The notes under the pieces: model-generated
The model's database searches: none
Seen by the model: the letters and a program-made list of their open reading frames with translations, nothing else
What the model was told of the DNA's origin: nothing
Shown here: positions 11,717-59,017 of the stretch, piece by piece
Layout of the letters: each line of letters opens with the position of its first letter
Numbering within the stretch: the stretch's first letter is position 1
Program-made: the position numbers and the translations under genes
Origin: Conexibacter sp. SYSU D00693
GTDB taxonomy: Bacteria; Actinomycetota; Thermoleophilia; Solirubrobacterales; Solirubrobacteraceae
Length of the DNA: 64,000 bases
Direction of reading: 5' to 3'
NCBI RefSeq assembly: GCF_017084525.1
Contig: NZ_CP070950.1
Coordinates: 2,418,001 to 2,482,000 of the forward strand

Positions 11717-12396
11717 CCGACGCGCCCGGGGCGATCCGCGTGATGCTGGTCGACGACGACGACCTGGTCCGCCGCGGCCTGCGCCTGATCCTCTCCAACG
11801 ACCCGGCGCTCGAGGTCGTCGCCGAGGCCGAGGACGGCGACATCGCGCTGCGCCGCGCGCCGCACCACCGCCCCGACGTGGTGCTGATGGACGTCCGCAT
11901 GCCCCAGATGGACGGCATCACGGCGACCCGCGAGCTGATCGCCCGGGTGCCCGACGCGCGCGTGGTCATCCTCACGACCTTCAACGAGGACGAGTACGTC
12001 GTCGGCGCGCTGCGCGCCGGCGCCAGCGGCTTCCTGCTCAAGCGCAGCGCCCCCGAGGACCTGCTGCGCGCGATCCACGTCGTCGCCTCCGGCGACGCGC
12101 TGCTCTCCCCCGCGGTGACCCGACGCGTGATCGAGCGGGTGGTCGAGCAGCCGGTCCTGAGCCCCTCCCAGGATCCGCGGCTCGCCGAGCTCACGCCCCG
12201 CGAGCTCGAGGTCTTCCTGCTCATCGCCCAAGGGCACGCCAACCGCGAGATCGCCGCCGCGCTGACCGTCGAGGAGACGACGGTCAAGAGCCACGTGCGC
12301 AACGTGCTGACCAAGCTCGGCGCACGCGACCGGATCCACGCGGTGATCCTCGCCTACGAGTGCGGCGCGATCTCGCCCGGCGGGCGGGCGGCGTGA
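11713..12396 (+). CDS. NarL/LuxR-family response regulator
   Basis: A 227-residue regulator with a receiver domain (acidic pocket DDDD near residue 15, phosphoacceptor D60 in VVLMDVRMP, conserved K in FLLKRS). A C-terminal LuxR-type HTH follows (LTPRELEVFLLIAQGHANREIAAAL...TVKSHVRNVLTKL). It is the cognate partner of the kinase immediately upstream. Its likely target is the palindrome at 10463-10490 and hence the MMPL gene, which is inference. This is the last chromosomal gene before the integrated element. Confidence 0.94.
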   Translation: MTDAPGAIRVMLVDDDDLVRRGLRLILSNDPALEVVAEAEDGDIALRRAPHHRPDVVLMDVRMPQMDGITATRELIARVPDARVVILTTFNEDEYVVGALRAGASGFLLKRSAPEDLLRAIHVVASGDALLSPAVTRRVIERVVEQPVLSPSQDPRLAELTPRELEVFLLIAQGHANREIAAALTVEETTVKSHVRNVLTKLGARDRIHAVILAYECGAISPGGRAA

Positions 12397-12410
12397 TGGC
12401 CGAGCAACGA

Positions 12411-12438
12411 GGAAGTCCCCGCGGTGGAGGGGTCTTCC
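12411..12438 (-). terminator. Original terminator of tRNA-Arg, left of the element
   Basis: GGAAGTCCCC pairs with GGGGTCTTCC (one T-T mismatch) around an 8-nt loop. It lies directly beyond the displaced tRNA 3' half, just as a similar hairpin at 32549-32573 lies beyond the intact tRNA. It may also end the response regulator transcript. Confidence 0.6.
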
Positions 12439-12441
12439 GAA

Positions 12442-12484
12442 GCGCGCCCGAGAGGATTCGGACCTCTGACCTTCGGTTCCGTAG
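12442..12484 (-). repeat. Left attachment site: displaced 3' half of tRNA-Arg(ACG)
   Basis: These 43 bp match 32578-32620 with one mismatch, covering the tRNA from the anticodon loop to the 3' end. Similarity continues outwards for another 13 bp with three mismatches. No 5' half of a tRNA follows, so this is the original chromosomal 3' half, separated when the element inserted at the anticodon loop. The single mismatch changes the T-loop TTC to TCC, an invariant position. Confidence 0.88.
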
Positions 12485-19907: not shown

Positions 19908-19918
19908 CTCCTATCTCC

Positions 19919-22900
19919 CTACCGCGCCACGCCAAGGAGGTCGCGGTCGTTGACGTACAGCTTGCGGATTGCGTTCTCGACCGCCTCGGCCTGGTCGGCC
20001 AAGGCGGGGTTGCCGATCTCCACGTAGCCCCACACGCCGGCCTGCCCCCAGTTGTTCACGGCCGCGCACCACTGGTCGCGCGCCGTGGTCGCCTTGGCGC
20101 CCGCCGCGCTCGCGGACTTCATCGTTCCCGACACCTCGATGATGAGCGTGCGGTCGACGTCATCGTGTTCGGTCTCGAGACGCACGAGGAAGTCTGGGAC
20201 ATATTCATGGGTCGACCCTTGGTGCACGTACGGGATCGTGAATCCAAGTCGCTCGTTCTTGACGTAGGAGAGCACGCGGCTGTCACGCTCGAGGATCTGT
20301 GCGAGCCCTTCCTCCCACGAGTTGCCCTTCAGTCCATCGAGGACCACGTGGTTGAGCGGGGACTTGGTCGGCGGCGGATCCATGACGACCTTCCGGGTGA
20401 GGTAGCGAACTTCGTCCGTGCTTCCCTTCGGATCAAAGCGGCGGATGATCGGCATCACGAGCGGCGCGCGGCTGCCCGGCCGGTGGACGATCGACCCGAA
20501 GACCTTCTCCGCGGCCTGCGCACAGGCCTGCGTGAGGAGCAGGTAGCCGATGGTCGTGTCCTTGGCCGTCGTGACGCACTCGTCGAGCCACTGCTTGCTG
20601 ATTGCGACGAGACGTGGGTAGAGCCACGGCTTCTCGACTCCGTCCATCGCGGCGAAGAACTCCTCACGCGTGATGAGGGCCTTCGCGATCGCGTACGCGA
20701 CGCGCTGCGGCCGGGCGTCGCGCATCTCGTCGAGGTCGACTGTCGCCGCCGCGCCCACGATGCCCTGGTTCTTGACCCATAGCGCGACCGACTCTTGGTC
20801 GAGATGCAGCAGTGAGTCGTCGCCGAACGCTGGTTCGAGCTCGTCGTCGGGCAGTTCGATCCGGTACCCGTCGAGCTTGGGGAAGCGGATCGAGAGGTCG
20901 GCGCGGTCGAGCAACGCGCGGACCTCGATTGCCGGTCGCGGATCCTTGCCCTTGGGCGGGGTCTTGTCGCCGGGGATGAAGCTGAACGGCACGCCGTAGA
21001 CCTCGGCGTACTCCGGTGCGTAGTGGCCGGTGTCGGGCGCGACCGCGTAGCTGCGTCGCCGGAGTCCTCGGCCTACGACCTGCTCGCAGAGGAGCTGACT
21101 GCGGAACGGACGGACGCCGAGAACGTGAGTCACCGTGTTCGCGTCCCACCCCTCGGTGAGCATAGAGACGGACACCACGCAGCGGATGTGCTCCCCGAGC
21201 TTGCCCTTCTTGCCGATCGTGTTCATCGCCTCGCGCAGGAGGTCTCCGTCTGTGAGCTTGTCCGGGTCGGCGCCTGGGTTACGGTCGAGGTAGGCGCGCT
21301 TGAAGGCCGCGATCTCTTGGGCCGCGTCCTTCTTGAACTCTCGGGTGAGCGGTTCACCCGACTCGATCTGCGCCGAGTCGACGAGCAGCGTGCGTTGGCG
21401 TGTGGTCCAAGAGCCGTCGACGACGTTGCTGAGCAGCGGAAGATTGCCGGGGACGAATTGTTTGGTGCCGTCGGACTTTTCGAACTCGCGGCCGGCGATC
21501 CAGTCGAACACGAGCTTTGAGACGACGGTGTTCGGACAGACGACGATCAGCACCGGCGGCGGCTCTCCGAGGTGAGCGAGCTCCCTCTCGTAGGTCTCGT
21601 GGTTCTGCTCGTAGCTGCGGTAGAGGCTGCGCATGGCGCCTTCGAGGACGACGGGTGGAACCCAGCCGGTCGCTCCGAAGTCGACGTCCTTCTTGAGCTT
21701 CTTGGGGAGCGGAGGGTCGATCTTGTCCCACAGGTCCCGGTAGGCGAGGCCCTTCTCGGGCGCGTCGTCGTCGACCGGGATGCGCGGCACCTTGACGATG
21801 CCCGACTCGATCGCGTCCATCAGGGAGAAGTCGCTCACCGTCCAGGGAAAGATGAACCCCTCGTTGTAGCCGGAGCCCTTCAGGTAGTACGGGGTGGCGG
21901 ACAGGTCGTAGACGGTCTTGACACCGGCTGCACGGTGCAGGTCTGCGATGCCGCGGAACCACACGCGAGCCTCGCGGTTGCGCTCCTCGTCTTCCTTTTC
22001 GGCGTCCTCGTCGGGACGTTCGAGGAGCTTGTCCTGGTAGCAATGGTGCGCCTCGTCGTTGAGGACGACCACTTCGCCCTTCCCAGAGCCGAGTCGTCCG
22101 AGGATCCGCGCGGCGACGTGCTGCGGGGTCTCGCGAAACGCGTCCGCCACCTCAGGCTTGCCTCCCCGCAGCAGCTTGCGGGTGGTCGCGGAGACGCCCT
22201 TGATCTCCTTCGCATCCTTGGGCAGGAAGGCGTGGTAGTTGATGATCTCCACCTGGGCCTGGAGCACCGCCTCCCAGAGGTCGGGCGGTACGAGGTCGCG
22301 CTCTCGGTAGTAGCTGTCGTCGCGCTCCGGCTTCAGCACGCCGAGGCGGTCGCGGATCGTGATGCCGGGGGCGATGACGAGGAACCGCTTCGCGAAGCGC
22401 GCATCCCGTGGAGCGTGGACCTTGTTGACCGTCAGCCAGGCGATCAGCATTGCCATGACGACGGTCTTGCCGGTTCCGGTCGCCATCTTCAGCGCAACAC
22501 GGGGAAGCCCATCGTTGTGGAGGTCGTTCTCGGGCTCGAGCCTGCGGCGGTAGTCCGCGGTCCCGTGGCGGCCGGCGATCTCTGCGAGGAAGATCGCCGT
22601 CTCGACAGCCTCGCGCTGGCAGAAGAGCACAGGCTCCTCGCGGTCGCTCCAGTAGGTGAGGAGCTTGCGCGTATACGGGGTCACCCCGTTCCAGTTGTTT
22701 GCACGCCAGCGCTCGACCTCACGACGGATGTCGTTGATGAGCGTGTTCTGCTCGCGGCGCTCGCCGGTCACGTCGAAGTCCATCGCGATGGTGTCGCTGG
22801 CGGCCGCCTTGCCCTTCCTGCTGACCGGGACCGGAATGAAGGACTCGCTCGGTCGGCGCCCCGGAAGGATCTCGCCGGTCGGCCCTTGCTCGCCGAGCTC

Positions 22901-22966
22901 GAAGTGCGCCGCCGGAGGTTCGTACGGCGAGTTCAGGATCGGGTTGCTGAGGTCGTGGGTAGTCAT
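19919..22966 (-). CDS. Type III Res-like DEAD/DEAH helicase-nuclease
   Basis: A 1015-residue SF2 helicase. Walker A is KMATGTGKT (near residue 164), the DEAH box is LNDEAHH (near 303), motif III is LSATPYYL, and motifs V-VI are SMLTEGWDANTVTHVLG and QVVGRGLRRRSY. The C-terminal domain has the Res-type nuclease fold: EYVPDFLVRL then LIIEVSGTMK near residues 930-950. The usual E-x-K lysine position is occupied by Ser (EVS), with a Lys four residues later, so cleavage activity is uncertain. Its ATG overlaps the TGA of the sacsin-like gene (ATGA), and Mod follows 11 bp downstream. Restriction by ATP-driven translocation is known for the family; here it is inference. Confidence 0.9.
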   Translation of the reverse strand: MTTHDLSNPILNSPYEPPAAHFELGEQGPTGEILPGRRPSESFIPVPVSRKGKAAASDTIAMDFDVTGERREQNTLINDIRREVERWRANNWNGVTPYTRKLLTYWSDREEPVLFCQREAVETAIFLAEIAGRHGTADYRRRLEPENDLHNDGLPRVALKMATGTGKTVVMAMLIAWLTVNKVHAPRDARFAKRFLVIAPGITIRDRLGVLKPERDDSYYRERDLVPPDLWEAVLQAQVEIINYHAFLPKDAKEIKGVSATTRKLLRGGKPEVADAFRETPQHVAARILGRLGSGKGEVVVLNDEAHHCYQDKLLERPDEDAEKEDEERNREARVWFRGIADLHRAAGVKTVYDLSATPYYLKGSGYNEGFIFPWTVSDFSLMDAIESGIVKVPRIPVDDDAPEKGLAYRDLWDKIDPPLPKKLKKDVDFGATGWVPPVVLEGAMRSLYRSYEQNHETYERELAHLGEPPPVLIVVCPNTVVSKLVFDWIAGREFEKSDGTKQFVPGNLPLLSNVVDGSWTTRQRTLLVDSAQIESGEPLTREFKKDAAQEIAAFKRAYLDRNPGADPDKLTDGDLLREAMNTIGKKGKLGEHIRCVVSVSMLTEGWDANTVTHVLGVRPFRSQLLCEQVVGRGLRRRSYAVAPDTGHYAPEYAEVYGVPFSFIPGDKTPPKGKDPRPAIEVRALLDRADLSIRFPKLDGYRIELPDDELEPAFGDDSLLHLDQESVALWVKNQGIVGAAATVDLDEMRDARPQRVAYAIAKALITREEFFAAMDGVEKPWLYPRLVAISKQWLDECVTTAKDTTIGYLLLTQACAQAAEKVFGSIVHRPGSRAPLVMPIIRRFDPKGSTDEVRYLTRKVVMDPPPTKSPLNHVVLDGLKGNSWEEGLAQILERDSRVLSYVKNERLGFTIPYVHQGSTHEYVPDFLVRLETEHDDVDRTLIIEVSGTMKSASAAGAKATTARDQWCAAVNNWGQAGVWGYVEIGNPALADQAEAVENAIRKLYVNDRDLLGVAR

Positions 22967-25900
22967 ACGTCCGAGTCGGTGTTGCCCTGGGCGGGTGTGG
23001 GCGCCGACTCTGCCAGGCCCCTCCAGCCATCGTCGAACATGTAGTCCGTGATCTGGTCGACGGGGTCCGGGATGGCCCAAACGCGTCGTCGCTCGTCGTC
23101 GAGCGCGTACTCCACGACGTAGAGCCAGCACTGGCCGTCGTCTGCCCTCTGCGCGAAGCGGAACTGAGCGGGCGAGAGTCCCACGCCTTTGGCATCCCAC
23201 GAGCCGGCCGTCGACTTGACTTCGATCCATCGGGCGAGCTCGCCATCGGAGTAGTACGAGATGACGTCGTAGCCCTCGTTCGCCGGGTTTGTCTCGTTCA
23301 TGTCCTCCGGCGTACGACCCTGTGCGCGCTCGTAACGAAGCACTTCCTTGATGCCGGCGGCATCAATCGCGGAGATCCGTCCGTCCTGCTCCTGCGTCGT
23401 CTTATCTGAGCCCACGTCGTCCATGGCGGGGACGACGTAAGAGCGCAAGCGGCTCCTCGACTCCGTCGATTGCATAGGCCTTGCGGTTCGCGAGGACCCA
23501 CCGGCTTGCCTGCCGCCGCCCGCCTCCCTACCTGTGCCAGCGTCGCCAGCAGACCAACCTCGCCGGTCCCCGTCGCCGGTACTCGCTTCAGCGCCGTATT
23601 CCGCGCTATCTCGCGCGCCACCGACGTTCGTTTGCGGGTCGGGAACGCCTCGTATGTCGGCGTCGTCCGCGCCGCTTGAGTCCGTTCCGGTTGTGTGGCG
23701 GTTGCTTCCGTGCGTTTCGGATGCGGCATCCGAGTCCGAAGTGTCTTGCGAGGCCCGGTGGACCGTGTCGACCTCTGCCGGCGAGCGTCCATCGTCGACG
23801 CCGTCCGACGATGGGTCGGGCCCGGCGATCGAATCGCCGACGCCCTGCGGTTCGCCCTCGACGAGGACATCGGTGCCAGACCCGTCCTCCGCGACGGTGG
23901 CCCGTTCCGACTCGACGTCGTCGGCTTGGTCGGACTCATCGGCGACGGTCTGGCTTTCCGCAGCCGCGCGCCGTTCGCGTTCGGCGCAGATGGCGGCGAA
24001 CTCGGCGAAGGCGTCCTCCTCGATCGTCGGGTATCCGTCGTCGTCGAGGTCGCGGTGGGCTTGCTGGGCGCTCTCGGTTGCCAGCACGTTGCGGACGACG
24101 TGCGCGATCGCTCGCGAGGACTCGCGCGGGAACAGACCCTCGAGGACGCAGCGCGAGACCGCTGCCCAGTCGGTGCGTCCGTGTGCCCGCACGACAGCCA
24201 GCAGACCGTCGCGCCGCACATAGTGCGCGGGAACGACCTCGGGCTCGGTGGACTCGGCGTCGAAGTCCTCGATCTCGTAGCGCACGGCAAGGTGCTCGTA
24301 GGTCTCGACCCGCAGCCCTTGCGCGAAGTCGAGCACGACGTTCCACCTGACGTTCTCGCCAGTGGCGATGCGGGCCAGGTGCTCGAGTCGTGCATCGATG
24401 CGCCGTGACACGTGCTCGTCTTCCAGCGGCATGCCGTGGTCGACCAAGCGTGTGACCAGGCGGTCCGAGAGACGCTCGACACCGGCATCTGCCAGCGCGT
24501 CGCTGATGTCGCCCGCCGGGATCAGGCGATCACAGGTAGCCTCGTCAAATCGCTCGGCGACCGCCGGCACGTCGTTGATCAGAACGTCTCCGGCCTCGTA
24601 CAGAACGCCGCTTCGGCCCAGCACGACACGCTCCCCGGCCAGTGCGTCCAGCTCCGCTCCCGGCGCCTGCAGGAGACGCCAACACTCTCGGACGACACGG
24701 CGCGTGGTGCCGGCAATCGGCTCGTCGCCGGCAGCCGACGAGATTTCGAGCAGCACCTCCGAACCGTCGGCTGGTCCGGGCGCCGCGGGGATCCCGACCG
24801 CCTCGAGCAACGCGCGTCGACCGCGCACGGACTCGGCGAGGACCAGGCGATAGGGCGTTAGCTGGTGCTCAGCCGCGAACGCGCCTGCAGCGGTGACGTG
24901 CTCACCGTCGGTCGTCGGCCAGCAGACGACGTCTGCCAGCGCGGTGACAGCAGGCTCGACGTTGTCATCCAGGAACGCCCAGACCTCGGCGGGAACTGGC
25001 TCCTTTCGACTGGCGAGATTTCGGACGTGATCGACGACGAGTTGCACCGGGGGTGTCGGGCGCACACCGACACCGGTGTCGACGCCGAGAACCGAGCGCA
25101 GGCGGTCCTGCTCGCGGCTGGGCAGGTCCACGAAACGCCCGGTGCTGGCGAAGAGACCGCGTCGACGCGTGAAGAACAGGTCCGAGGGCATCGCCCAGGC
25201 GGCGGTCCCTTCCTCCGGGAGCCACGCGTGGTCACGCAGTGCAGCGAACGGACCGTGCTCGCTTAGGTCGGCGTGCGTAGCAGACAGGTGATCGAGGACG
25301 CGGCGGATTGCCGCCAGCGACGTCTGCGTCGCCGCCGTCGCGGTCAGCATGCGCACGTGGCGGACCACGTCCTCGGGGGCCGGCGAGTCGCGGGCTCCGA
25401 GGAAACGCAGAAGGTCGGCAGCGCCGCCCTCCACCCCGATCTGCGGATGCACAAGCGTGGCAGAGTCACCCAGGAGTTCACGAACGAGCGGAACGTCCAA
25501 GTACGCGCCCCCCGGCTTGGCGCGTTCCCCGTCGACGCACGGAACCCACGCGGTGTCGCGCAGCGCGCCCGCCAGCGTTGGGTCGTCGTCGACGGTTCGC
25601 CGGTGGTCGACGAGCAGGTCCAGGAGCCGCAGCAGCGCTTCGGCCGACGCGTTCCCTACTCCGCGCTCGGCGTGCTCGCAGACGTAAGTCGTCAGGTCAA
25701 GTCGTCCGATCCCAAGCCGTGAGAACAGCGCCGGGAACCGCGCCGCGAGTTCCTCCGCGACATCGTCTGTCACACCGAGCGGGTCGGTGAAGCCGCCGGG
25801 AACGACGCTGCTTCGCGGCGTCGCCAGGCCGCGCCCAGTGGGGACCATGCGGACGTCGAGCAGACGGTCGCGGTGTTCGTCCGTGAGTTCGGCGGCGCGA

Positions 25901-27687
25901 GCCTCCAGCCAGGCCAAGACGTTCGTCGCCCGCGTACCGTCGGTGATTTTCATAGCGCCGGTGGACAACGTCTCGATGGCCTTGTCGATCGGCCAGCGAT
26001 CGCCATTCGCGACGAGGGCTCCATGGTCCGCCTGGACACGCTCGTCGACGAACGCGTATGGCGTGGCTTCGGCGAAGAGCCGGGCAGTGTCGCGATCGGC
26101 GATCCAGACGTCGTCAAGGCATTCGTAGGTCCTGCGGTTCGTATGCCACAGCGCCAGCGTTCTCAGTCGGCTCGACTGCTCGTCCAACTCATCGGCCGAG
26201 AAGTCGCACAGCACACGCTTGAGCAGGTTGCGACGTGCCTTTCCCCCGAGGCCTGCCGGCAGCTCCCCGGCGGTGAACGGCCCACCGTCCAAGCCAATGT
26301 TCTCTAGGGCCTCGAGCAGGACCGGCAGCGTGAGGCGCGCGGTTGGCACTGCAGCGCCCATGTCGGTGACGGCGGCCCGCAGTTCGGGTGAGACGGTTTC
26401 GATCCCGACTGCGTCCAACAGCTCAAGTAGTTGCGGTTTGTACTTCGCCGATGGCAGGACGGTCTGACCCACATGGGCCCACCGACCGCGAGTTGTCCAC
26501 ATGACCGGCGCCTGCTCGAGCCGCCGGTGGATCGCCGTCCAGAACCCTGCGAAGAGATCACCAGTCGCCCGCCGCCCGCCCTGACGCTGGTTGTGTGCAT
26601 CTCGAACAAGTCCCCAAAACCGTTTGTGACCCAGCGAGTGGGCAAGAATCTCGAGGTTCTCGGCTAGGAGGTCGGCGGCGCATTCGATTGCCGCCCGATT
26701 CCACTCACCCTCTGGCCCTTCAAGAACCACGCCCTTGCGACTGAGATCCGGAAAAAAGGTCGCATCGACGTGGAGTCGCATCCCTGTGCGGACATGCGTC
26801 GGAAGCGTCGCGTAAAGCAGCCCGTTGGCGCGGCGGGTGTCTGGCTGCACCGCAACCCTTACCCGTGCGTGCCGCCGCCCGATAGACGGATGTTCGTCGA
26901 CGAGTTGCTGCGCGCGATCGTCGAACTGTCCCTCGAGCACCACCCACGACTCGTCGACACCCGGTGCGACGATGTGGACACGCCCGTCGACCTCCTGACG
27001 CCGGTAGGTCAACGAGTCCCCGGGCCACGCAACGGTGATCGATTCCAGCTTGCGCAAGAACACCATGGCGGCCGGCACCGCCTTGCAGAACTCCTCCCGG
27101 ATCCGGACTTGCTCGGAGGACGGGACTGGGTCGGCTCGCAGGCGGGTGCGTAGCGCGGTGTGCCGCGTGGCCCAGGGAAGCCGCAACACGGTGCCTTCGG
27201 TGTCATGGTCGTGGCCACACCCGCCGGCACAGACAACGATCCGCTGGTCTTCGCGCGCGGCCTCGTCCAGCACCCAGTGCTGCCCGGCCGACAGCAGCTC
27301 GGGTCGATCGGTCACCTGGTAGACGGACAGGAAACCGACCCCGAACGCCCCGGTGAGCTCCGGGTCGTCCTCCTTGCTAGCCCCGGCGAGCTCTTCGAAG
27401 GCGTGAAAGTCGCACCGCGCCCGTCCCTGACGCCCGCTGCGTTCCCAGGCACAGACCTCGGCCTCCAAGTCGTCGCAAGGCTCGAACCCACCGTCATCCG
27501 ACACCTCGAGGGCATCCGGCTTGAACGAGAACACGAGCTGCCGCGCGCCAGCAGCGTCGTCGGCGTTCTGGATCATTTCGTTGGCGAGCGCCCCCGCACC
27601 CCGCAGGTTCTGCAGGGCTCGAGCGATCATCTTCAGGTGGTTGAAGCCCCGCCGACGGTAACCGGCGACGGGCACGTCGCTCGTCAT
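22963..27687 (-). CDS. Sacsin-like GHKL ATPase with C-terminal DUF3883 domain
   Basis: A 1574-residue protein. The N-terminus is an HSP90/sacsin-type GHKL ATPase: N box NEMIQNADDA (36-45), G1 DDGGF (64-68), G2 GAFGVGF (113-119). A long helical middle region follows, with repeated LLxxLG / ALRDxAWVP-like segments similar to sacsin repeats. From about residue 1290 an acidic, low-complexity Ser/Asp/Gly linker runs for roughly 150 residues. The last 95 residues form a DUF3883-type domain with GYDVISYYS then WIEVKST near 1490, a PD-(D/E)XK-like core. It is the first gene of the operon with Res and Mod. The start at ATG 27687 precedes SDVPVAGYRRRG. The exact role is unknown; an ATP-dependent sensor or nuclease subunit is inference. 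Confidence 0.87.
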   Translation of the reverse strand: MTSDVPVAGYRRRGFNHLKMIARALQNLRGAGALANEMIQNADDAAGARQLVFSFKPDALEVSDDGGFEPCDDLEAEVCAWERSGRQGRARCDFHAFEELAGASKEDDPELTGAFGVGFLSVYQVTDRPELLSAGQHWVLDEAAREDQRIVVCAGGCGHDHDTEGTVLRLPWATRHTALRTRLRADPVPSSEQVRIREEFCKAVPAAMVFLRKLESITVAWPGDSLTYRRQEVDGRVHIVAPGVDESWVVLEGQFDDRAQQLVDEHPSIGRRHARVRVAVQPDTRRANGLLYATLPTHVRTGMRLHVDATFFPDLSRKGVVLEGPEGEWNRAAIECAADLLAENLEILAHSLGHKRFWGLVRDAHNQRQGGRRATGDLFAGFWTAIHRRLEQAPVMWTTRGRWAHVGQTVLPSAKYKPQLLELLDAVGIETVSPELRAAVTDMGAAVPTARLTLPVLLEALENIGLDGGPFTAGELPAGLGGKARRNLLKRVLCDFSADELDEQSSRLRTLALWHTNRRTYECLDDVWIADRDTARLFAEATPYAFVDERVQADHGALVANGDRWPIDKAIETLSTGAMKITDGTRATNVLAWLEARAAELTDEHRDRLLDVRMVPTGRGLATPRSSVVPGGFTDPLGVTDDVAEELAARFPALFSRLGIGRLDLTTYVCEHAERGVGNASAEALLRLLDLLVDHRRTVDDDPTLAGALRDTAWVPCVDGERAKPGGAYLDVPLVRELLGDSATLVHPQIGVEGGAADLLRFLGARDSPAPEDVVRHVRMLTATAATQTSLAAIRRVLDHLSATHADLSEHGPFAALRDHAWLPEEGTAAWAMPSDLFFTRRRGLFASTGRFVDLPSREQDRLRSVLGVDTGVGVRPTPPVQLVVDHVRNLASRKEPVPAEVWAFLDDNVEPAVTALADVVCWPTTDGEHVTAAGAFAAEHQLTPYRLVLAESVRGRRALLEAVGIPAAPGPADGSEVLLEISSAAGDEPIAGTTRRVVRECWRLLQAPGAELDALAGERVVLGRSGVLYEAGDVLINDVPAVAERFDEATCDRLIPAGDISDALADAGVERLSDRLVTRLVDHGMPLEDEHVSRRIDARLEHLARIATGENVRWNVVLDFAQGLRVETYEHLAVRYEIEDFDAESTEPEVVPAHYVRRDGLLAVVRAHGRTDWAAVSRCVLEGLFPRESSRAIAHVVRNVLATESAQQAHRDLDDDGYPTIEEDAFAEFAAICAERERRAAAESQTVADESDQADDVESERATVAEDGSGTDVLVEGEPQGVGDSIAGPDPSSDGVDDGRSPAEVDTVHRASQDTSDSDAASETHGSNRHTTGTDSSGADDADIRGVPDPQTNVGGARDSAEYGAEASTGDGDRRGWSAGDAGTGREAGGGRQAGGSSRTARPMQSTESRSRLRSYVVPAMDDVGSDKTTQEQDGRISAIDAAGIKEVLRYERAQGRTPEDMNETNPANEGYDVISYYSDGELARWIEVKSTAGSWDAKGVGLSPAQFRFAQRADDGQCWLYVVEYALDDERRRVWAIPDPVDQITDYMFDDGWRGLAESAPTPAQGNTDSDV

Positions 27688-28642
27688 GCGTTCACTCCGT
27701 CGTCTTCGACCCGTTGCGAACATCGGTACGAATGCACGCTGCAGTCTGCTGGCCGCCAGCGTTCTAGACGAGCTCGGAGACCCTCGTGCTGGGCCCGGGC
27801 GAGCCCCCGAAGAGTGCCTCCGGTCAGGGCGCTGTGATGGTTCTCGCGGCTGCGCTTCATCGTTCGTGAAGTGTGAAGCTCCGTCACTGATCGTGGAGTT
27901 GAACTCAGACTCTGGCGCGTGTCAGGTCGGCCACGAGGGTTTCGACCTCGGCGCTCGCCGCCACCACGATGGGAGAGTCGCCGAACCACGCGCACATCTG
28001 ACGGTTCCTAGGTCGTGAGCGGACGTCGGACGGGAGCCGTGAACGGACTTCGCGACCGGCGTGACCTTCTCCCGGCAACACATCGAGGCCGTCGAGAGCT
28101 ACCCGAAGTCGGTGATGCTCGCACTCACGAGCGGCCGCCGTGCGAGAGCCCAGGGGGCAGCTGAAGCAGGGGCAACTCCTCCGAGTGAAGGCAGGCGGCC
28201 TTAGGAATCGAAGGCGCGGCCAAGCGTCGCCGCGCGCACTCGATGGGATGGAGCGAGACGATGTCTGCCTCGTCCCGAAGGCCGAGGCCTCGCTCGTTCA
28301 CAACGAGATCCAGATGCGGGCACTGATTGCCGGGGATCCAAGAGGCTGCCCTTGATTCTCCGGGCTTTGGCTCGCAGACATCTCCGCGAGGCTCCAGAGC
28401 CAAGACCAACTTGCCGGAGGAGCGGTGGTCAGCGTGAGGCGGACGGGTCGCGACCTGCGGCGGCGCACGCCAACAGCATCCCAGCCTCCGGCCCAGCGCT
28501 TCTTCCACGAGACAGCGACCCGCCGCGCGGACGGTTGGGTAATGACAAGCCCCGATGGGCCTCGGCACGCCCACCTTCGGGCCCGCCTCCGTGATCGCAC
28601 CGCAAGTCTCCTCGACCGCGCGTCGTCGGTACGTTCCCGGTG
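27688..28642. other. 955-bp region without a convincing gene
   Basis: This lies between the divergent sacsin-like and AIPR genes and must hold both promoters. Open frames here have no recognisable domains or ribosome sites. A 47-codon plus-strand frame at 28061-28204 (VTFSRQHIEAVESYPKSVML...) looks more protein-like than the rest and may be a gene remnant. No tRNA or transposase traces were seen. Confidence 0.6.
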
Positions 28643-30295
28643 ATGAGCCAGTTCCACGTCAGCCAGATCGAGACGCATGTCAGGGACTTGTACGCGGCCG
28701 ACCACTGGGACTCGAACCTTGACGAGACGAACAACATGTCCCGGTTGCTCGCTCTGCACGCCGTAAATCTGGTTCTCGGAGCGGACGAGGACGCTCAACG
28801 CACCATCGAGATCACCGACGGCGGAGAGGACCGGGGCATCGACGCGGTTGGCGTGGATCCGAACGCCAAGCTTGTTGTCTTCGTGCAGTCCAAGTGGCGA
28901 CGGGACGGCTCCGGATCGATGTCGCTGGCGGACGTCCTGAAGTTCCTTGATGGCGTGAAGGCTCTCCTCGGCATGCAGACGCAGGACGAACCAGCGCACG
29001 CGTCAGAGCAAATGCGCATCGCCGTCCGCGATCTGCTCAAGACCCCCGGAGCCAAGATCCGCCTCGTCACTGTCACCACTGCGAGCGATCCGCTTGCAGA
29101 GGCGGTGGAGACTCCAGTCAGGGAGTTGCTGGGCCAGCTGAACGACCTCGAGGACGTCGAACCGCTCGCTGAGCACACGCACCTCGCACAGGCGAATGTC
29201 TTCAACGCCATTGCTGATGCCGCCAAGCCGGCGGTCGACCTTGAGGTTCAGATGCTTGATTGGGGGCGCGCTGCCGAGCCTCAGAAAATGTTCTACGGCA
29301 GGGTCAACGCTGCGGATGTCGCGGCTTGGTTCGCGGCGCACGGCACGGACTTGTTCGCCGAGAACATCCGAGTCGTGATCCCGCGCTCGGATATCAACGA
29401 CGGCATCCTGCGGACGGTCGAGGGCGAGCCGGAGAACTTCGCCTACTACAACAACGGCATCACGATTCTGGCCGAGGCGCTCGAGGTCGGTCCCGGTGGC
29501 TTGCTCAACCGAGACGTGGGGTTCTTTCGGCTCTCGGGAGCGAGTGTTGTCAACGGCGCCCAGACAGTGTCGACCCTTGGAGCGGTCCTGGGGACAGACC
29601 AAGAGACTCAGCTGGGCAGCGCATTCGTGATGGTTCGCTGCATCGAGGTGCCGGCGAATGAGGAAGGCCTTGGGCGAAGGATCACGCGCTTCGCAAACAC
29701 GCAGAACGAGGTCTCGAGCCAAGACTTTGCGTTCCTCGACGCTCAGCAGCACCGCCTCGCCCGGGAGTTGCAGGTTCTAGGCCTCGAGTACATCCTCCGC
29801 TCCGCTGAGGTGCCGAAGTCGAAGGACCCAGGCCAGGTGATCGAAGTGCGTCCCGCGGCCGTGGCCTTGGCGTGCGCATCGCCGAACGTCGGGCACGCAG
29901 TGGTAGCGAAGCGAGAGGTCTCTCGGCTGTTCTCCGACCCGTCAATCTACCCGGCGCTCTTCAACGAACAGACGGACCCGCTCCGCTTGAGTCGAGCAGT
30001 CGAGATCGTCCGGCGGGTCGACGCTCTCCTCGACGATATTGAGCGAGACAACGACGGGATCAAGGCGGGAATTGCGGTCCACGGTCGCCGGGTGATCGCT
30101 CACCTCATCATGCGACGGATCGGCGACACGGCGATGAAAGATCCGGAGAAGGACCTCGACGACCTCATCGCCGATCTTGAGCAAGAAGCGACAGGGCACG
30201 TCGACGCGCTCACGGCCGTTTTTCCGGCGAACGCCTATCCCGGGAACGTTTTCAAGAATCAGACGCGCGTCAACGAATTGCTCGCCGCCGTCTGA
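28643..30295 (+). CDS. AIPR-family abortive-infection protein
   Basis: A 550-residue protein of the abortive-infection phage-resistance (AIPR) family. Its signature is present: LFAENIRVVIP, then LRTVEGEPENFAYYNNGIT near residue 270, then GASVVNGAQTVSTLG and RFANTQNEVSSQDF. The N-terminal part has a PD-(D/E)XK-like core (GIDAVGV near residue 66, VFVQSKW near 83) with Gln in place of the acidic residue, as in Mrr-like nucleases. ATG 28643 is preferred; a GTG immediately before it is equally possible. It stands alone with its own promoter region. Family members are linked to phage resistance through cell arrest or death; the trigger is unknown. Confidence 0.9.
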   Translation: MSQFHVSQIETHVRDLYAADHWDSNLDETNNMSRLLALHAVNLVLGADEDAQRTIEITDGGEDRGIDAVGVDPNAKLVVFVQSKWRRDGSGSMSLADVLKFLDGVKALLGMQTQDEPAHASEQMRIAVRDLLKTPGAKIRLVTVTTASDPLAEAVETPVRELLGQLNDLEDVEPLAEHTHLAQANVFNAIADAAKPAVDLEVQMLDWGRAAEPQKMFYGRVNAADVAAWFAAHGTDLFAENIRVVIPRSDINDGILRTVEGEPENFAYYNNGITILAEALEVGPGGLLNRDVGFFRLSGASVVNGAQTVSTLGAVLGTDQETQLGSAFVMVRCIEVPANEEGLGRRITRFANTQNEVSSQDFAFLDAQQHRLARELQVLGLEYILRSAEVPKSKDPGQVIEVRPAAVALACASPNVGHAVVAKREVSRLFSDPSIYPALFNEQTDPLRLSRAVEIVRRVDALLDDIERDNDGIKAGIAVHGRRVIAHLIMRRIGDTAMKDPEKDLDDLIADLEQEATGHVDALTAVFPANAYPGNVFKNQTRVNELLAAV

Positions 30296-30353
30296 CCCGA
30301 CCAGGAGGACAGAGTCGCGGCGACGGTGACGTCCGCCGAGGCTGTTGCTGTCA

Positions 30354-30401
30354 GCGAGGGAGCGGTACCCCGCACCTCGACCCGCGCTTTCGCTCCCTCG
30401 C
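30354..30401. repeat. Inverted repeat, 11-bp arms
   Basis: GCGAGGGAGCG at 30354-30364 is matched exactly by its complement at 30391-30401, around a 26-nt loop. It lies 60 bp beyond the AIPR stop and could be part of that gene's 3' end. Confidence 0.6.
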
Positions 30402-30452
30402 GTAGAGACCAAAGCGCACCCGTGGCACCGAGGCGCAGGCCGCAGTGTTGCG

Positions 30453-30481
30453 CCCAGTGTTTCGACGGGCGAAACACTGGG
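30453..30481. terminator. Perfect 12-bp hairpin downstream of AIPR
   Basis: CCCAGTGTTTCG and CGAAACACTGGG flank the 5-nt loop ACGGG. It is the most stable simple hairpin after the AIPR gene and a plausible terminator, although no T run follows. Confidence 0.5.
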
Positions 30482-30485
30482 GCGG

Positions 30486-30624
30486 CCGCTCGACCCCGCT
30501 GCTGAGCCGAATGTGGCGCCGTCTGCGAGCCCGACCACCCGCCCACACCATGGACTACGTCCGATGATGAGCGCGGGTGGTCGGGCTCTGGACGGCTTGA
30601 CGGGCAGGCAGCGGGGTCGAGCGG
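30486..30624. repeat. Large nested inverted repeat (17-bp outer, 16-bp inner arms)
   Basis: Outer arms CCGCTCGACCCCGCTGC (30486-30502) and its exact complement (30608-30624) enclose inner arms GAGCCCGACCACCCGC (30527-30542) and its exact complement (30573-30588). The inner loop is 30 nt, and the inter-arm spacers are 24 and 19 nt. Such structures occur at origins of transfer or replication and as recombination or regulatory sites. No relaxase or replication initiator is present on the element. Confidence 0.75.
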
Positions 30625-30906
30625 CAGCCATGCGGGGCCTGGGTCCTGGGACAGGACAGGTCAACAGCCACGAGTGATCGTGGGTGATGGCTGGCGGACC
30701 CGGCGGATGTGGGCGGCCAGGCAGTCAGTACGGAACGTGCGGTTCGGCTGCGGCAGAGCGATGCGAGCAGGGGAGGCTGCGGGGCAGTGCTAGAGGTCGC
30801 CTCGCTGCGATGTGGGCGCGGCCGGGTTGGCTCAACGGGTCGGCGAGGGGAGGGGGCCGGCAGGACGGACCGGCGAGGACGGTCGGGGAGCTGGTTGGCG
30901 GCCTCG

Positions 30907-30926
30907 GGAGCGAGCTCGCTCGCTCC
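30907..30926. repeat. Short inverted repeat, 9-bp arms
   Basis: GGAGCGAGC and GCTCGCTCC are separated by 2 bp. It lies about 190 bp upstream of the excisionase start and may be a recombination-protein or regulator site. Confidence 0.4.
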
Positions 30927-31115
30927 ATTCCGAGCTGGCTCGACCACTGGCGGTTTCGCTCGCGCGCGATCGCCTCCGCCCGCTCGACAACTCTCGGTCG
31001 AGCTCCCGAGCTATCTGGCGCGTCCGCGGTTCAGCTGGCTAGCAAGCGTGCAAGCAGCGCGTGCGGTCGGGACAGATCCGTGCCGGTCGCTTCGACCTGG
31101 CGCGCCCTGGTGGGC

Positions 31116-31349
31116 ATGACCAACCTCCTCAACCTCGAGCCGGCGCCCGTCGTCGGTGTCCATCTCGACGAGCCGCTGCTCACCGCCGACGACGTCGCCG
31201 GGCTCCTGCGCGTCCCCCGCTCGAGCGTCTACGAGTACGCCCGGCGCCGGCGCGACCCGCTGCCCTCAGTCGCGGTCGGCCGGCACCGGCGCTTCTACCG
31301 GTCTGACGTGGAGGCCTGGCTCACGACGCAGCGAGCCGCTCGACGCTGA
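31116..31349 (+). CDS. Excisionase-like MerR-type HTH protein
   Basis: A 77-residue protein with a winged-helix DNA-binding domain of the excisionase/HTH_17 type: LLTADDVAGLLRVPRSSVYEYARR, then LPSVAVGRHRRFYRSDVEAWL. The size and position beside the integrase identify it as the recombination directionality factor of the element. The ATG at 31116 is chosen because the upstream frame is low-complexity. Its last 29 bases overlap the 3' end of the integrase gene on the other strand, so transcription of one may oppose the other. Confidence 0.85.
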   Translation: MTNLLNLEPAPVVGVHLDEPLLTADDVAGLLRVPRSSVYEYARRRRDPLPSVAVGRHRRFYRSDVEAWLTTQRAARR

Positions 31350-32484
31350 GCGGCGCGGTGACGGCGAAGGCCTCGGCGACCAGGCGTGCGTCGTCGGGGC
31401 GCGGCGTGTAGTGCAGGTAGCGCATCGTGGTCTGCACGTCGGCGTGGCCCATCCACTCCTTCACGCGCAGGATGTCGGCCTTGGCGATCATCCGCGTACC
31501 GAACGTGTGGCGCAGGTCGTGGAAGCGCAGACGCCGCAGCCCGGCCCGCTCGAGCGCGATGTTGAACCGGCGGCGCAGCGCCGAACCGTCGAGGTAGCCG
31601 CCCAACTCGCCGACGAAGACCAGGTCATCGTCGGCCGTCCACCTCTCCCGCTGACCGAGCCGGGCGAGCGTCGCAGCGACGTCGGGTGCGAGCGGCACGG
31701 CCCGGACTTTGCCGCTCTTGGGCGTTGACTCGACGCCGGCGCAGAAGCTGGCCCGCACCCGGACCGTGGACCCGGCGAAGTCCACGTCGCGCCACCGCAG
31801 GGCCAGCAGCTCGCCGCGGCGCAAGCCGGTGTACGCGGCGGTCAGGTAGATCGCCGCGTCCTGCTCGCACGCCGCAGCGCGCACGAGCGCCTGGACCTCC
31901 TCGGGCTCGAGCACCTGAAGGTCCAGCCGCCGCGGCGCCCGCAGCCGCTCCACCTGCGCGGCAGGGTTGTCGCGCAACCCGTAGACCTTCTGGGCGCGGC
32001 GGAAGACGCCGTGCATCTCGATGAGCATCTTGTTCTTCGACCGCGGCGAGACCGGCAGCTGGGCGAGCCAGCGCTCGATGTGCAGCGGCGTGATGTCGCC
32101 GACCTTCATCGCGCCGAACGCGGGCAGCAACCGGCCGTTGAGCGACCCGCGGTAGGAGCGCATCGTCGAGGGCTTGCACCCCCGGTCCTGCTCGCAGTAG
32201 CGGAGCCACTCCGCCGCGGCGTCGGCGAACGTCGCCTCATGGGCCTTCGAGCCCGGCACCCAGCGCTCGCGGGCCTCGTCGAGCACCTCGCGCAACCACG
32301 CCTCCGCGGTGCGCTTCGTGACGTAGCCGTTGGCCGGCCGGCCGCGGCCGGTCCACGCCGGGCCGATCTTGCGCTTGACCTGGCGGCCGTCCGGCAGCCG
32401 GTACTTGGCGTACCAGACCGGGCCCTTCTTGCGGTCGACCCGGAACACGTGGCCGGAAGCCGGCGGGATCCGACTGAACTGCAC
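31321..32484 (-). CDS. Tyrosine site-specific integrase
   Basis: A 387-residue phage-type integrase. It has an N-terminal arm-binding domain (YAKYRLPDGRQVKRKIG), a SAM-like core-binding domain (about residues 85-180, STMRSYRGSLNGRLLPAFG), and a catalytic domain with the R-K-H-x-R-H-Y set: TGLRRGE (near 222), STPKSGKVR, HDLRHTFGT (near 322), MGHADVQTTMRYLHY with the nucleophilic Tyr near 356. It starts 94 bp from the attachment repeat in tRNA-Arg and so catalyses insertion and excision of the 20-kb element. All catalytic residues are present, so it is probably active. Confidence 0.95.
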   Translation of the reverse strand: MQFSRIPPASGHVFRVDRKKGPVWYAKYRLPDGRQVKRKIGPAWTGRGRPANGYVTKRTAEAWLREVLDEARERWVPGSKAHEATFADAAAEWLRYCEQDRGCKPSTMRSYRGSLNGRLLPAFGAMKVGDITPLHIERWLAQLPVSPRSKNKMLIEMHGVFRRAQKVYGLRDNPAAQVERLRAPRRLDLQVLEPEEVQALVRAAACEQDAAIYLTAAYTGLRRGELLALRWRDVDFAGSTVRVRASFCAGVESTPKSGKVRAVPLAPDVAATLARLGQRERWTADDDLVFVGELGGYLDGSALRRRFNIALERAGLRRLRFHDLRHTFGTRMIAKADILRVKEWMGHADVQTTMRYLHYTPRPDDARLVAEAFAVTAPLSVERLAAS

Positions 32485-32548: not shown

Positions 32549-32573
32549 GAAAGCCCCGGTATGCGGGGCTTTC
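32549..32573 (-). terminator. Terminator of the intact tRNA-Arg, brought by the element
   Basis: A perfect 10-bp stem, GAAAGCCCCG / CGGGGCTTTC, with a 5-nt loop. In the tRNA direction the stem ends in TTTC, giving a short T stretch. It mirrors the hairpin at 12411-12438 on the other side of the element. Confidence 0.75.
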
Positions 32574-32577
32574 CGAG

Positions 32578-32652
<75 letters not shown>

Positions 32653-40566: not shown

Positions 40567-41055
40567 GTGGCGGCCACGAGCACCGACCAGGCGCGCTTCC
40601 GCGAGGTCATCGGCCACTTCGCCAGCGGCGTCGCGGTCGTCACGGCCCACGGCTCCGACGGTCCCGCCGGGCTCACGACGAACGCCGTCTCGAGCGTCTC
40701 GCTGGACCCGCTGCTGCTCCTCGTCTGCTTCGAGCGCTCCTCGCGCACCCTGCCCGTCGTGCGGGAGACCGGCCGCTTCGCGGTCAACGTCCTCGCCGCG
40801 GGCCAGGAGGACCTGGCCCGCGTCTTCGCGTCGCGCCGCGTGGCGCGCGAGAAGTTCGAGGGCGTCACGCACGACGTCGCCCACGGGGTCCCCGTGCTCG
40901 ACGGCGCGCTGGCGTGGCTGGCCTGCGACCTGCAGCAGCTGGTCGAGGCGGGCGACCACGTCATCGGCATCGGCGCCGTGACGCAGATGGACGCCCGCGA
41001 CGACCTCGAGCCGCTCGTCTTCTACGCGGGCAGCTACCTGCGCGTCACGCCCTGA
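40567..41055 (+). CDS. Flavin reductase domain protein (FMN-binding split barrel)
   Basis: A 162-residue protein of the flavin reductase-like family (FREVIGHFASGVAVVTAHG, then GLTTNAVSSVSLDPLLLLVCF, then GRFAVNVLAAGQEDLARVFA). Members transfer electrons from NAD(P)H to flavin for a partner monooxygenase, but none is adjacent. The GTG at 40567 is the only good start. The stop overlaps the convergent phoD end by 11 bp. Confidence 0.9.
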   Translation: MAATSTDQARFREVIGHFASGVAVVTAHGSDGPAGLTTNAVSSVSLDPLLLLVCFERSSRTLPVVRETGRFAVNVLAAGQEDLARVFASRRVAREKFEGVTHDVAHGVPVLDGALAWLACDLQQLVEAGDHVIGIGAVTQMDARDDLEPLVFYAGSYLRVTP

Positions 41056-42610
41056 CCGCGCCCGGCTTGCCGCGCTCGGTCACCCACGTCTGCAGCGTGC
41101 GACCGGGGGCGGTGTCGGTCAGCACGGTGTCGACGACCCGGTAGTCCGCGGTGAAGCGCCGCGCGGTCAGCGTGCAGCGGACGTAGCCGTGGTGGTTGTC
41201 CAGCAGCCGGCGGTGCGGGTTGTTGGCGAGGTCGGGGTCCACCTGCGTGCTGAGGGCGCGGTCGCCGCCGGAGGTGATCGACGTGCCGATGAACTCCGTG
41301 GCGACGGGCGCCGCGTCGAGGTGGGCCGGCGAGGGCGGCACGTCGCGGACCTCGTTGACGTGGACGTCGCCCGTGATGACGACGGGGCCGTCGACGGTCG
41401 CCAGCGCGTCGGTCACCCGCTGGCGGTCGGCGGCGTAGCCGTCCCACTTGTCGGGGTTGTGGAAGCGCTTGCGCGCCGGGTCGGCGTCCTGGTCCAGCGG
41501 CGCGACGGGGACCTGCTGGGCGAGCACGTCCCAGGAGGCGCGCGAGCCGGCCAGGCCGCTGCGCAGCCAGTCCAGCTGGTCGGCGCCCAGGATCGTGCGG
41601 CCCTCGCGCAGGGCCTCGGTGCAGAAGCCGCCGTTGGCGTCGGACTCCTGGGGCGGGCAGGCCGGCGGCTGGTCGTCGCGGTGCTGGCGGGTGTCGAGGA
41701 CGTGGAAGGTCGCCATGGCGCCGTAGGAGACGCGGCGGAAGAGCGGCAGGTCCTTGCCGACGGGCCGCTGGGCGCGGCGCAGCGGCATGTGCTCCCAGTA
41801 GGCCTGGTAGGCCGCGGCGCGGCGGGCGGCGAAGACGTCGACCGGGCTGTCGGGGTCGGCCTCGAGGTCGGCGTAGTTGTTCTGCACCTCGTGGTCGTCC
41901 CAGGTCACGAGCCACGGCGCGACCGCGTGGGCGGCCTGGAGGTGCGGGTCGGTCTTGTACTGCGCGTGGCGCACGCGGTAGTCGCTGAGCGTCTTGATCT
42001 CCGCGGCGGGGGCGTGGGCGCGCGGGCCGGTGCCGCCGGCGCCCTCGTAGATGTAGTCGCCGAGGTGCACGACGAGGTCGAGCTCCTGCTGGGCCATGTC
42101 GCGGTAGGCGGCGTACTGGCCGGCCGGGAAGTTCTGGCAGCTCGCGAAGGCGAAGGTCATCGGCCGCCGCGCGCCGGCCACCGGCGCCGTCTTCGTCCGG
42201 CCGACCGGGCTGACGTCCCCGCCGACCTTGAAGCGGAAGAAGTACTCGCGGTCGGCGCTGAGGCCGTCGGCCTCGACGTGCACCGTGTGCGCCTCCTCGG
42301 GCCGCGCGACGGCGGTGCCCTGGCGCAGGACCTTGCGGAAGCCCGCGTCGGGCGCGATCTCCCAGCGGACCGGCACCGCCTGCGCGGGCATCCCGCCGCT
42401 GCCGTCGAGCGCGAGCGGGTCCGGCGCCAGCCGCGTCCACAGCACGACCGAGTGCGCCCACGGGTCGCCCGACGCGACGCCGAGGGAGAACGGGTCGGCG
42501 GCGAAGCTCGCGCCGCGAGCGAGCTGGACGCCGGGGAGGAAGAGCGCGGTGGCACCGGCGCCGCCGGCGAGGAGGAGGTGGCGGCGGGAGAGGCGGGTCT
42601 GGTCGGCCAT
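41045..42610 (-). CDS. phoD: PhoD-like alkaline phosphatase/phosphodiesterase
   Basis: A 521-residue Tat-exported metallophosphatase. The N-terminus carries a twin-arginine signal (RLSRRHLLLAGGAGATALF). An N-terminal beta domain (FSLGVASGDPWAHSVVLWTRL) is followed by the catalytic domain: LVVHLGDYIYEG, VTWDDHEVQNNY, GPVVITGDVHVNE and EFIGTSITSGGD. The PhoD family hydrolyses phosphodiesters and phosphomonoesters outside the cell, using Ca and Fe. ATG 42619 is an alternative start. No Pho box was identified upstream. Confidence 0.93.
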   Translation of the reverse strand: MADQTRLSRRHLLLAGGAGATALFLPGVQLARGASFAADPFSLGVASGDPWAHSVVLWTRLAPDPLALDGSGGMPAQAVPVRWEIAPDAGFRKVLRQGTAVARPEEAHTVHVEADGLSADREYFFRFKVGGDVSPVGRTKTAPVAGARRPMTFAFASCQNFPAGQYAAYRDMAQQELDLVVHLGDYIYEGAGGTGPRAHAPAAEIKTLSDYRVRHAQYKTDPHLQAAHAVAPWLVTWDDHEVQNNYADLEADPDSPVDVFAARRAAAYQAYWEHMPLRRAQRPVGKDLPLFRRVSYGAMATFHVLDTRQHRDDQPPACPPQESDANGGFCTEALREGRTILGADQLDWLRSGLAGSRASWDVLAQQVPVAPLDQDADPARKRFHNPDKWDGYAADRQRVTDALATVDGPVVITGDVHVNEVRDVPPSPAHLDAAPVATEFIGTSITSGGDRALSTQVDPDLANNPHRRLLDNHHGYVRCTLTARRFTADYRVVDTVLTDTAPGRTLQTWVTERGKPGAVRA

Positions 42611-42755
42611 GGGCCGCATGCGAGCGGCCCGGGACGTTCACGTGGTTTGCGGGGGTGTGAACCGTCCTGGGTGGGACCGGGGTGGTTTCAGGCGGGCCGC
42701 CAAGGGGGTCGAGGGCGCCCACCTCCCACCACCTCCTTCGCGCCTACCCCGCGCC

Positions 42756-42798
42756 GCGTGACGCCTCGTGCAGCCATGACATGCACGAGGCGTCACGC
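42756..42798. terminator. 17-bp hairpin between the 42826 gene and phoD
   Basis: A perfect 17-bp stem, GCGTGACGCCTCGTGCA and its complement, around a 9-nt loop. It lies 27 bp beyond the stop of the membrane protein gene (minus strand) and upstream of phoD. It is probably that gene's terminator. Confidence 0.7.
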
Positions 42799-57304: not shown

Positions 57305-57334
57305 CGCCGCCGTGGCGCGGCGCCACGGCGGCGT
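57304..57334 (+). terminator. Terminator hairpin after the FNT gene
   Basis: ACGCCGCCGTGGCG and its complement form a perfect 14-bp stem with a 3-nt loop, starting at the transporter's stop codon. It separates that gene from the riboswitch. Confidence 0.7.
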
Positions 57335-57337
57335 GTA

Positions 57338-57470
57338 GGGTCCCGACCCTTCCGCACGACGACGCGAGGAAGCCGGTGCAAGTCCGGCACGGTCGCGCCA
57401 CGGTGACCCGCCAAGGGAAGTCCGAGACTCGTCCGTCGTGTGCCCATCGTCCGGGGACGCTCGATCCCCG
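57338..57470 (+). promoter_or_regulatory. Cobalamin riboswitch
   Basis: The core is easy to read: GAGGAAGCCGGTGCAAGTCC then GGCACGGTCGCGCCACGGTGA, then AAGTCCGAGACTCGTC, the consensus B12-box pattern. Closing arms GCACGACG (57354-57361) and CGTCGTGTGC pair around it. A small hairpin CGGGGA/TCCCCG (57452-57470) lies right before the AGGAGG of cbtB, so translation control by masking the ribosome site is plausible. It probably governs cbtB-cbtA and the genes beyond. Confidence 0.9.
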
Positions 57471-58444: not shown

Positions 58445-59017
58445 GTGCGGCGCCTCGTGCTCGTGCGGCACGCCACCACGTCAGCCGTGCGCGCCGCGGC
58501 GTTCGGCGGCGACGAGCCGCTGGACGAGCGCGGGCGCGTGGCCGCGCGGGCGCTGGCGGGGGCGCTGCCGCGCACGGACGTCGCCTACGCCAGCCCCGCC
58601 GGCCGCGCGCGGGAGACCGCGGCGGCGGCCGGCCTGGACCCGGTGACGGTGGAGCCGGCGATCGCGGAGTGCGACTTCGGCGCCTGGGCCGGCCGCCCGC
58701 TCGCCGAGGTCCACGCCGAGGACCCGGACGCGACGGCGGCGTGGATGGCCGACCCGGACGCGGCGCCGCACGGCGGCGAGTCGCTCACGCAGCTGCTCGC
58801 GCGCGTGCGCGCGTGGCTCGACGAGCAGGCCGCGCAGGACGGCCGCGCGATCGCGGTCACCCACGGCGGCGTGGTCAAGGCGGCCGTCGTCTGCGCGCTC
58901 GACGCGCCGGCCAGCGCGTTCTGGCGGGTCGACGTCTCCCCCCTGTCGTTCACCGAGCTCCACGCCCACGCCGGGCGCTGGACCGTGACGCGCGTCAACG
59001 CGACGGTGGCGGCGTGA
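58445..59017 (+). CDS. Histidine phosphatase, probable CobC-type alpha-ribazole phosphatase
   Basis: A 190-residue phosphoglycerate mutase-like phosphatase. The phosphohistidine motif is [10 protein letters not shown], the second Arg/Glu positions are [11 protein letters not shown] and ECDFGAW, and the second His is AVTHGGV. Position inside a cobalamin operon argues for alpha-ribazole-5-phosphate dephosphorylation. The GTG start follows cbtA by 6 bp and the end overlaps cobQ by 4 bp (GTGA). Confidence 0.82.

Follow-up and report, generated by a model that had tools for sequence, protein, structure and literature searches.

A conserved long hairpin in a relaxase-less defence island of Conexibacter, a proposed origin of transfer of MOB_C type

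MOB_C origins of transfer (oriT) of the pAD1 and pAM373 kind are characterised by a large inverted repeat close to the gene for the relaxase. The oriTs of these two plasmids are said, after work by Francia and Clewell in 2002, to consist of a large inverted repeat of about 140 bp accompanied by direct repeats. In pAM373 (PLSDB type MOBC), we found a single hairpin of 290 nt (12166-12456, z -11) that is intergenic and lies about 0.5 kb from the replication-relaxation gene. PMC5587640 cites inverted repeats for the oriTs of both plasmids, and TraX is described in PMC12857230 as binding direct repeats away from nic. Integrative elements that possess an oriT and no relaxase have been named iOriT (PMC11389934). 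As kinds, relaxases of MOB_C type, oriTs with hairpins and islands devoid of a relaxase are all already known.

We report here a hairpin carried by an integrated island of Conexibacter sp. SYSU D00693, within a stretch of 64,000 nucleotides (64 kb) that was analysed as a whole and is called the window below. As in pAD1 (oriT2) and pAM373 of Enterococcus faecalis, the family to which this hairpin belongs presents a putative, hairpin-containing oriT region near a MOB_C-type relaxase gene. Both the relatives of the window and pAM373 have a large inverted repeat close to the relaxase gene; this likeness is one of position, the pAM373 hairpin being compared as a long hairpin near a relaxase gene and not as a mapped oriT. 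The pAM373 hairpin is located beyond the 3' end of the relaxase gene, whereas those of the window's relatives are located upstream of it. The two plasmids also belong to another phylum with another base composition, no sequence similarity was noticed, and they carry a relaxase gene, in contrast to the island of the window. The island resembles iOriT elements, with an integrase, cargo, an oriT-like site similar to that of relaxase-bearing elements, and no relaxase.

The island and its long hairpin

The two borders of the island carry 50-bp copies of a tRNA-Arg 3' end, with 48 of 50 bases identical, and so delimit a 20,186-bp element (12435-32620). Integrase and attachment repeats correspond to the integration module of relaxase-less mobilisable islands, and the borders together with the integrase show the hairpin's host DNA to be mobile. 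The main features of the island are as follows.

12435-32620, no strand: integrated island, 20,186 bp long, whose insertion site is the 3' end of tRNA-Arg (border direct repeats, integrase by the tRNA)
12435-12484, + strand: distal attachment-site repeat, 96% identical to 32571-32620
14453-17212, + strand: cargo, UvrD-type helicase with a PDDEXK_1 nuclease domain, not a relaxase family
17223-23230, - strand: cargo, methyltransferase and helicase/restriction gene of type III restriction-modification (PADLOC MTase_III, E 5e-255; ResIII)
22963-27723, - strand: cargo, TmtA-type defence protein with sacsin and NOV_C domains (PADLOC TmtA, E 1e-286)
28640-30295, + strand: cargo, AIPR/AbiU-type abortive-infection protein (PF10592, E 3e-28; PADLOC AbiU)
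31116-31349, + strand: HTH_17 protein, probable excisionase (PF12728, E 4e-12; start at 31116 picked by eye)
31321-32484, - strand: tyrosine integrase adjoining the tRNA (PF00589, E 5e-30; PF14659)
32571-32620, + strand: proximal attachment-site repeat, overlapping the tRNA-Arg gene

The UvrD-PDDEXK helicase, the type III restriction-modification genes, TmtA and the AIPR/AbiU protein may together form one defence locus. The TmtA reading frame overlaps the restriction gene.

The hairpin is located between the cargo and the integration genes. An earlier note on this DNA had described two nested inverted repeats in this region, with perfect arms of 17 and 16 bp, preceded by two smaller hairpins. 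Both nested repeats are present, the outer perfect arms being 18 bp long and the inner ones 16 bp as announced.

30443-30452, + strand: direct repeat 1 (CAGTGTTGCG); repeats with the same 12-nt spacing recur upstream of other copies
30455-30464, + strand: direct repeat 2 (CAGTGTTTCG), which doubles as the 5' arm of the small hairpin 30453-30481
30470-30479, + strand: repeat in inverted orientation (CGAAACACTG), which forms the 3' arm of this small hairpin
30481-30629, + strand: long hairpin, conserved element and proposed origin of transfer (fold, conservation, covariation)
30485-30502, + strand: outer 5' arm, 18 bp perfect, partner of 30608-30625
30527-30542, + strand: inner 5' arm, 16 bp perfect, containing the conserved core GACCACCCGC
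30573-30588, + strand: inner 3' arm, pairing with 30527-30542
30608-30625, + strand: outer 3' arm, pairing with 30485-30502

The outer perfect arms sit inside a 22-nt arm (at 95%) and the inner ones inside a 25-nt arm (at 88%). An additional GCCGTC/GACGGC pairing between outer and inner arms produces a single near-continuous hairpin of 149 nt (30481-30629), whose apical part of 30 nt is itself mostly paired. Single-strand folding of this segment gives one hairpin on either strand, with folding-energy z values of -10.8 (+) and -12.0 (-), and none of 200 dinucleotide shuffles was equally stable. The hairpin site is the most stable 160-nt stretch of the 64-kb window, in a near tie with one at 58481. 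Perfect inverted repeats of at least 16 bp within 150 bp occur at one further place in the window (42756-42798), and when the window was shuffled 60 times, such a repeat appeared once. Immediately 5' of the hairpin, two 10-bp direct repeats 12 nt apart and an inverted copy occupy 30443-30479; the p value of this set against shuffles (0.016) is the lowest attainable with 60 shuffles.

Other structures were observed elsewhere in the window. A 160-nt segment at 58461-58660 nearly matches the hairpin in stability (-120.4 kcal/mol), the inverted repeat at 42756-42798 is located just past the start of a gene (41045-42619, - strand), and a cobalamin riboswitch is predicted at 57321-57450 with a score barely above gathering.

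The smaller hairpin at 30453-30481 was recovered with 12-bp perfect arms and a 5-nt loop, and belongs to the same site as the long hairpin. The one at 30354-30401 also exists (11-bp perfect arms, 26-nt loop), but we found no conservation of it in relatives. It lies just after the AIPR gene and is perhaps a terminator. We rejected a terminator as an explanation for 30481-30629, which is too long, lacks a T tract and is conserved beside relaxases. The remark of the earlier note that no gene explains these structures holds, as the open reading frames spanning the region gave no match in a Pfam scan and no recognisable gene runs across the site. The hairpin is real and conserved, and it is not a gene.

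Copies of the hairpin in the order

Comparison of positions 30290-31120 with relatives by blastn returned the palindrome alone, without its flanks, in five other genomes at 73-77% identity. A search with a covariance model built from six hairpin copies retrieved 28 copies in 18 of the 232 genomes of the order. The window's genome (G000) has a single copy. The same structure is therefore present in related islands, where the earlier note had suggested looking for it, and its arms are conserved there, in a region that did not prove to be part of a gene. All 28 copies fold as single hairpins of about 130-165 nt. In most of them the outer stem and the inner core (GACYACCCGC / GCGGGTRGTC) are common features, the middle being variable. 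In the alignment of six sequences, changes on both sides (compensatory) were found at 18 pairs, and all five covariation measures exceeded those of 500 out of 500 shuffles and dropped sharply with slid partners.

Covariation, a very stable fold and an intergenic position would also suit a structured non-coding RNA that mobile islands carry, such as one regulating transfer in the manner of the small RNA reported for SGI1 (PMC9299015). However, covariation in a palindrome is equally expected from DNA, and no Rfam family matched at the hairpin site. Furthermore, neither strand of the hairpin copies folds clearly better overall, and G-U pairs are nearly as frequent on one strand as on the other (114 of 1782 pairs versus 90 of 1740). 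This last balance would fit selection on DNA rather than on RNA, and because of it we consider a structured RNA, one of the options raised in the earlier note, to be quite unlikely.

Direct repeats are a recurrent companion of the hairpin. Directly upstream of 12 of the 28 copies, that of the window included, two direct repeats of 8-11 bp are accompanied by an inverted one (p<0.05 versus shuffles). The repeat sequence varies between elements and the spacing is almost always exactly 12 nt. Varied repeats beside a common hairpin are the pattern that would be expected of element-specific binding sites.

We extended the searches beyond the order. A gapped core pattern matched viral contigs at 13 places, all without relaxase and without the conserved apex, and these were taken as chance or coding matches. 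In a phylum-wide pattern scan, the conserved apex was absent from matches other than G000. Searches of plasmids by DNA and by relaxase protein gave no match, and provided no named plasmid of this clade as a yardstick. Neither the hairpin family, nor the 12-nt repeat pair, nor their spread among relaxase-less islands of the order was found in the literature, Rfam, plasmid and viral collections searched.

The relaxase linked to the hairpin

Clustering of the proteins encoded around the copies revealed two recurrent families: tyrosine integrases, and a protein whose gene lies closely downstream of the hairpin in the same orientation. A tyrosine integrase was found within 10 kb in 21 of 27 loci. 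This proximity, and the presence of ParA/ParB beside some copies, would be compatible with an accessory site of the integrase/excisionase (recombination directionality) or with a binding site for a partition protein. Nevertheless, hairpin and integrase are about 0.1 to 7 kb apart, depending on the locus, and the hairpin is kept at L080, L082, L083, L084, L086 and L090 with no tyrosine integrase in reach, L090 having instead a serine-recombinase-like gene (sequence read by eye). ParA/ParB are also absent from the window's island. Since elements in which no neighbouring tyrosine integrase was found also retain the hairpin, the recombination-factor site proposed in the earlier note is disfavoured, and we regard either kind of site as very improbable. 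The G+C-rich sequence and the resemblance of the arms to terminal inverted repeats could similarly evoke the remnant of a non-autonomous transposon (MITE), or a structure that high G+C produced by chance. However, a MITE should give dispersed copies, whereas the window's genome has one; the copies hold the same position relative to mobility genes, and chance is excluded by the conservation and the shuffles. This explanation is scarcely credible.

The second family was found as a same-strand gene starting within a few hundred nucleotides downstream in 13 of the 28 copies (12 loci by clustering, 13 with L086). Its best members match PF13814 (Replic_Relax) above the cut-off, with E values of 2e-8 and 5e-7, and matches to the NCBIfam 'MobC family replication-relaxation protein' are weak but consistent (19-39 bits versus a subfamily cut-off of 200 bits). 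The motif PD..ExE..K is invariant in the 13 relaxase-like proteins. In the predicted structure (mean pLDDT 81), the N-terminal winged helix-turn-helix (HTH) resembles MarR proteins (Z 10.6). The C-terminal domain, modelled alone (pLDDT 88.5), resembles nucleases with a restriction-endonuclease fold: Bax1 (Z 9.8, 110 residues), BsaWI (Z 9.1, 141 residues), Can2 and the nickase BspD6I (Z 6.5). PMC12857230 describes MOB_C relaxases as combining, in this way, a winged HTH with a PD-(D/E)xK nuclease. On these models, the linked proteins appear to be of MOB_C type, an assignment that concerns the relatives, the relaxase being absent from the window. They share this architecture and the replication-relaxation family with MobC of CloDF13 and TraX of pAD1, but belong to a clade separate from the NCBIfam MobC subfamily, their scores being far under its cut-off.

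At four loci (L080, L082, L083, L090), the gene following the relaxase encodes a coupling protein of the TraG/TraD kind (TrwB_AAD_bind, TraG-D_C). At L083, ParA, ParB and a replication-like HTH_36 gene are additionally located upstream, beside the site. The linked copies therefore sit in apparent conjugative or mobilisable elements. Among the options listed in the earlier note (transfer, replication or recombination-factor sites, or an RNA), an origin of transfer is favoured because this structure adjoins, in related islands, genes for relaxases of MOB_C type.

Rolling-circle and single-strand origins are likewise marked by long imperfect hairpins and repeats next to them. The main rival reading is that the excised circle has here its origin of replication, or an sso/ssi-like origin for single-strand initiation; the downstream protein would start rolling-circle-like replication and the hairpin would start second-strand synthesis. 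The family name 'replication-relaxation' and PF13814 imply a role in replication, and the HTH_36, ParA and ParB genes of L083 point in the same direction. In contrast, the type IV coupling protein encoded immediately behind the relaxase in several linked loci argues against this reading, as do the integrases of 21 of the 27 loci and the retention of the site by relaxase-less islands. We hold the replication reading to be rather improbable. A dual role in transfer and replication is possible, because relaxases can also drive replication.

The linkage was also examined from the relaxase side. A relaxase profile has members in 75 of the 232 genomes of the order. In a reciprocal test, relaxases that had not entered model building were found to have a long hairpin upstream at L105, L107, L108, L109, L122/L123 (two loci that are nearly identical) and L131. 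No such hairpin was found within 700 nt upstream of the more distant Replic_Relax genes L111-L120, L124, L130, L132, L133, L135 and L136. As close members have the hairpin and more distant ones do not, it is confined to one part of the relaxase family. Distances between hairpins and distances between relaxases are correlated (Mantel r 0.82, p 2e-4); this correlation partly reflects the shared ancestry of the elements, as descent of whole elements would yield the same.

Palindromes of other sequence were observed beside related genes. At L110/L134, a long palindrome (z about -8 to -9) without the conserved core is located upstream of a relaxase relative. At L127, from another class of the phylum, a different long hairpin with a 14-bp inner stem (z -5.3) precedes the Replic_Relax-type domain of a distant relaxase by 235 nt, which hints that the architecture is wider than the present sequence family.

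Copies without relaxase and the proposed transfer

No linked relaxase was found for 15 of the 28 copies, that of the window included; some of the contigs concerned are short, and a few of these orphans may be misjudged. L072 and L081 have weak partial relaxase matches elsewhere within 10 kb. Genome G002 contains both situations: three orphan copies (L072-L074) adjoin integrases, and four other elements of the same chromosome carry the hairpin and a relaxase. The G002 orphans are 76-79% identical to their nearest linked copy in that genome, where a putative helper with a matching site is thus at hand for them.

The relaxase profile, run at full sensitivity against the window's island, revealed no relaxase or remnant (best E 0.013), and no relaxase family was found in the cargo by PADLOC and by Pfam scans of its main genes. 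The window's genome contains no member of the relaxase profile and no PF13814 match above the cut-off. The relaxase-linked copy nearest to the window's hairpin (L066) is in another genome. In this respect the island differs from iOriT elements: its helper is only presumed, as the genome has no such relaxase and this nearest linked copy is just 71% identical.

A non-coding site with inverted and direct repeats, located near relaxosome genes in related elements (13 of 28 copies linked to a relaxase, 12 of 28 with significant repeats), has the characters of an oriT. Judging from sequence comparison and the predicted architecture of the linked proteins, segment 30443-30629 is probably a MOB_C-type origin of conjugative transfer that has no relaxase of its own and would be mobilised in trans by a helper. 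The layout would be that of short direct repeats beside a long imperfect palindrome, the two forming the oriT of an island that possesses its own excision genes and no relaxase. The island would first excise by means of its integrase and the probable excisionase, and circularise. A MOB_C relaxase from a co-resident helper would then bind the direct repeats, presumably by its winged-HTH domain, and its PD-(D/E)xK domain would nick at the palindrome, where we infer the nic position to be. The coupling protein and type IV channel of the helper would pass the strand to the recipient, and the island would integrate there at tRNA-Arg.

A wider proposal can be made tentatively, and we consider it somewhat doubtful. 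The order may possess a so far undescribed family of long-hairpin transfer origins, read by relaxases of restriction-nuclease type whose target would be the 150-nt structure itself, as a cruciform or as a single-strand hairpin. Islands without a relaxase, many in number and phage-defence ones included, would carry the hairpin only and spread by borrowing these relaxases.

For most genomic islands, no means of transfer can be seen. An alignable family of transfer origins, tied to a poorly studied class of relaxases, would make such islands findable by sequence and allow them to be paired with helpers. The system would also permit tests of how DNA is chosen by a relaxase that does not use the usual tyrosine/HUH chemistry. 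For the island described here, it suggests a route by which a set of defence genes (type III restriction-modification, TmtA, AIPR) may pass between cells without conjugation genes of its own.
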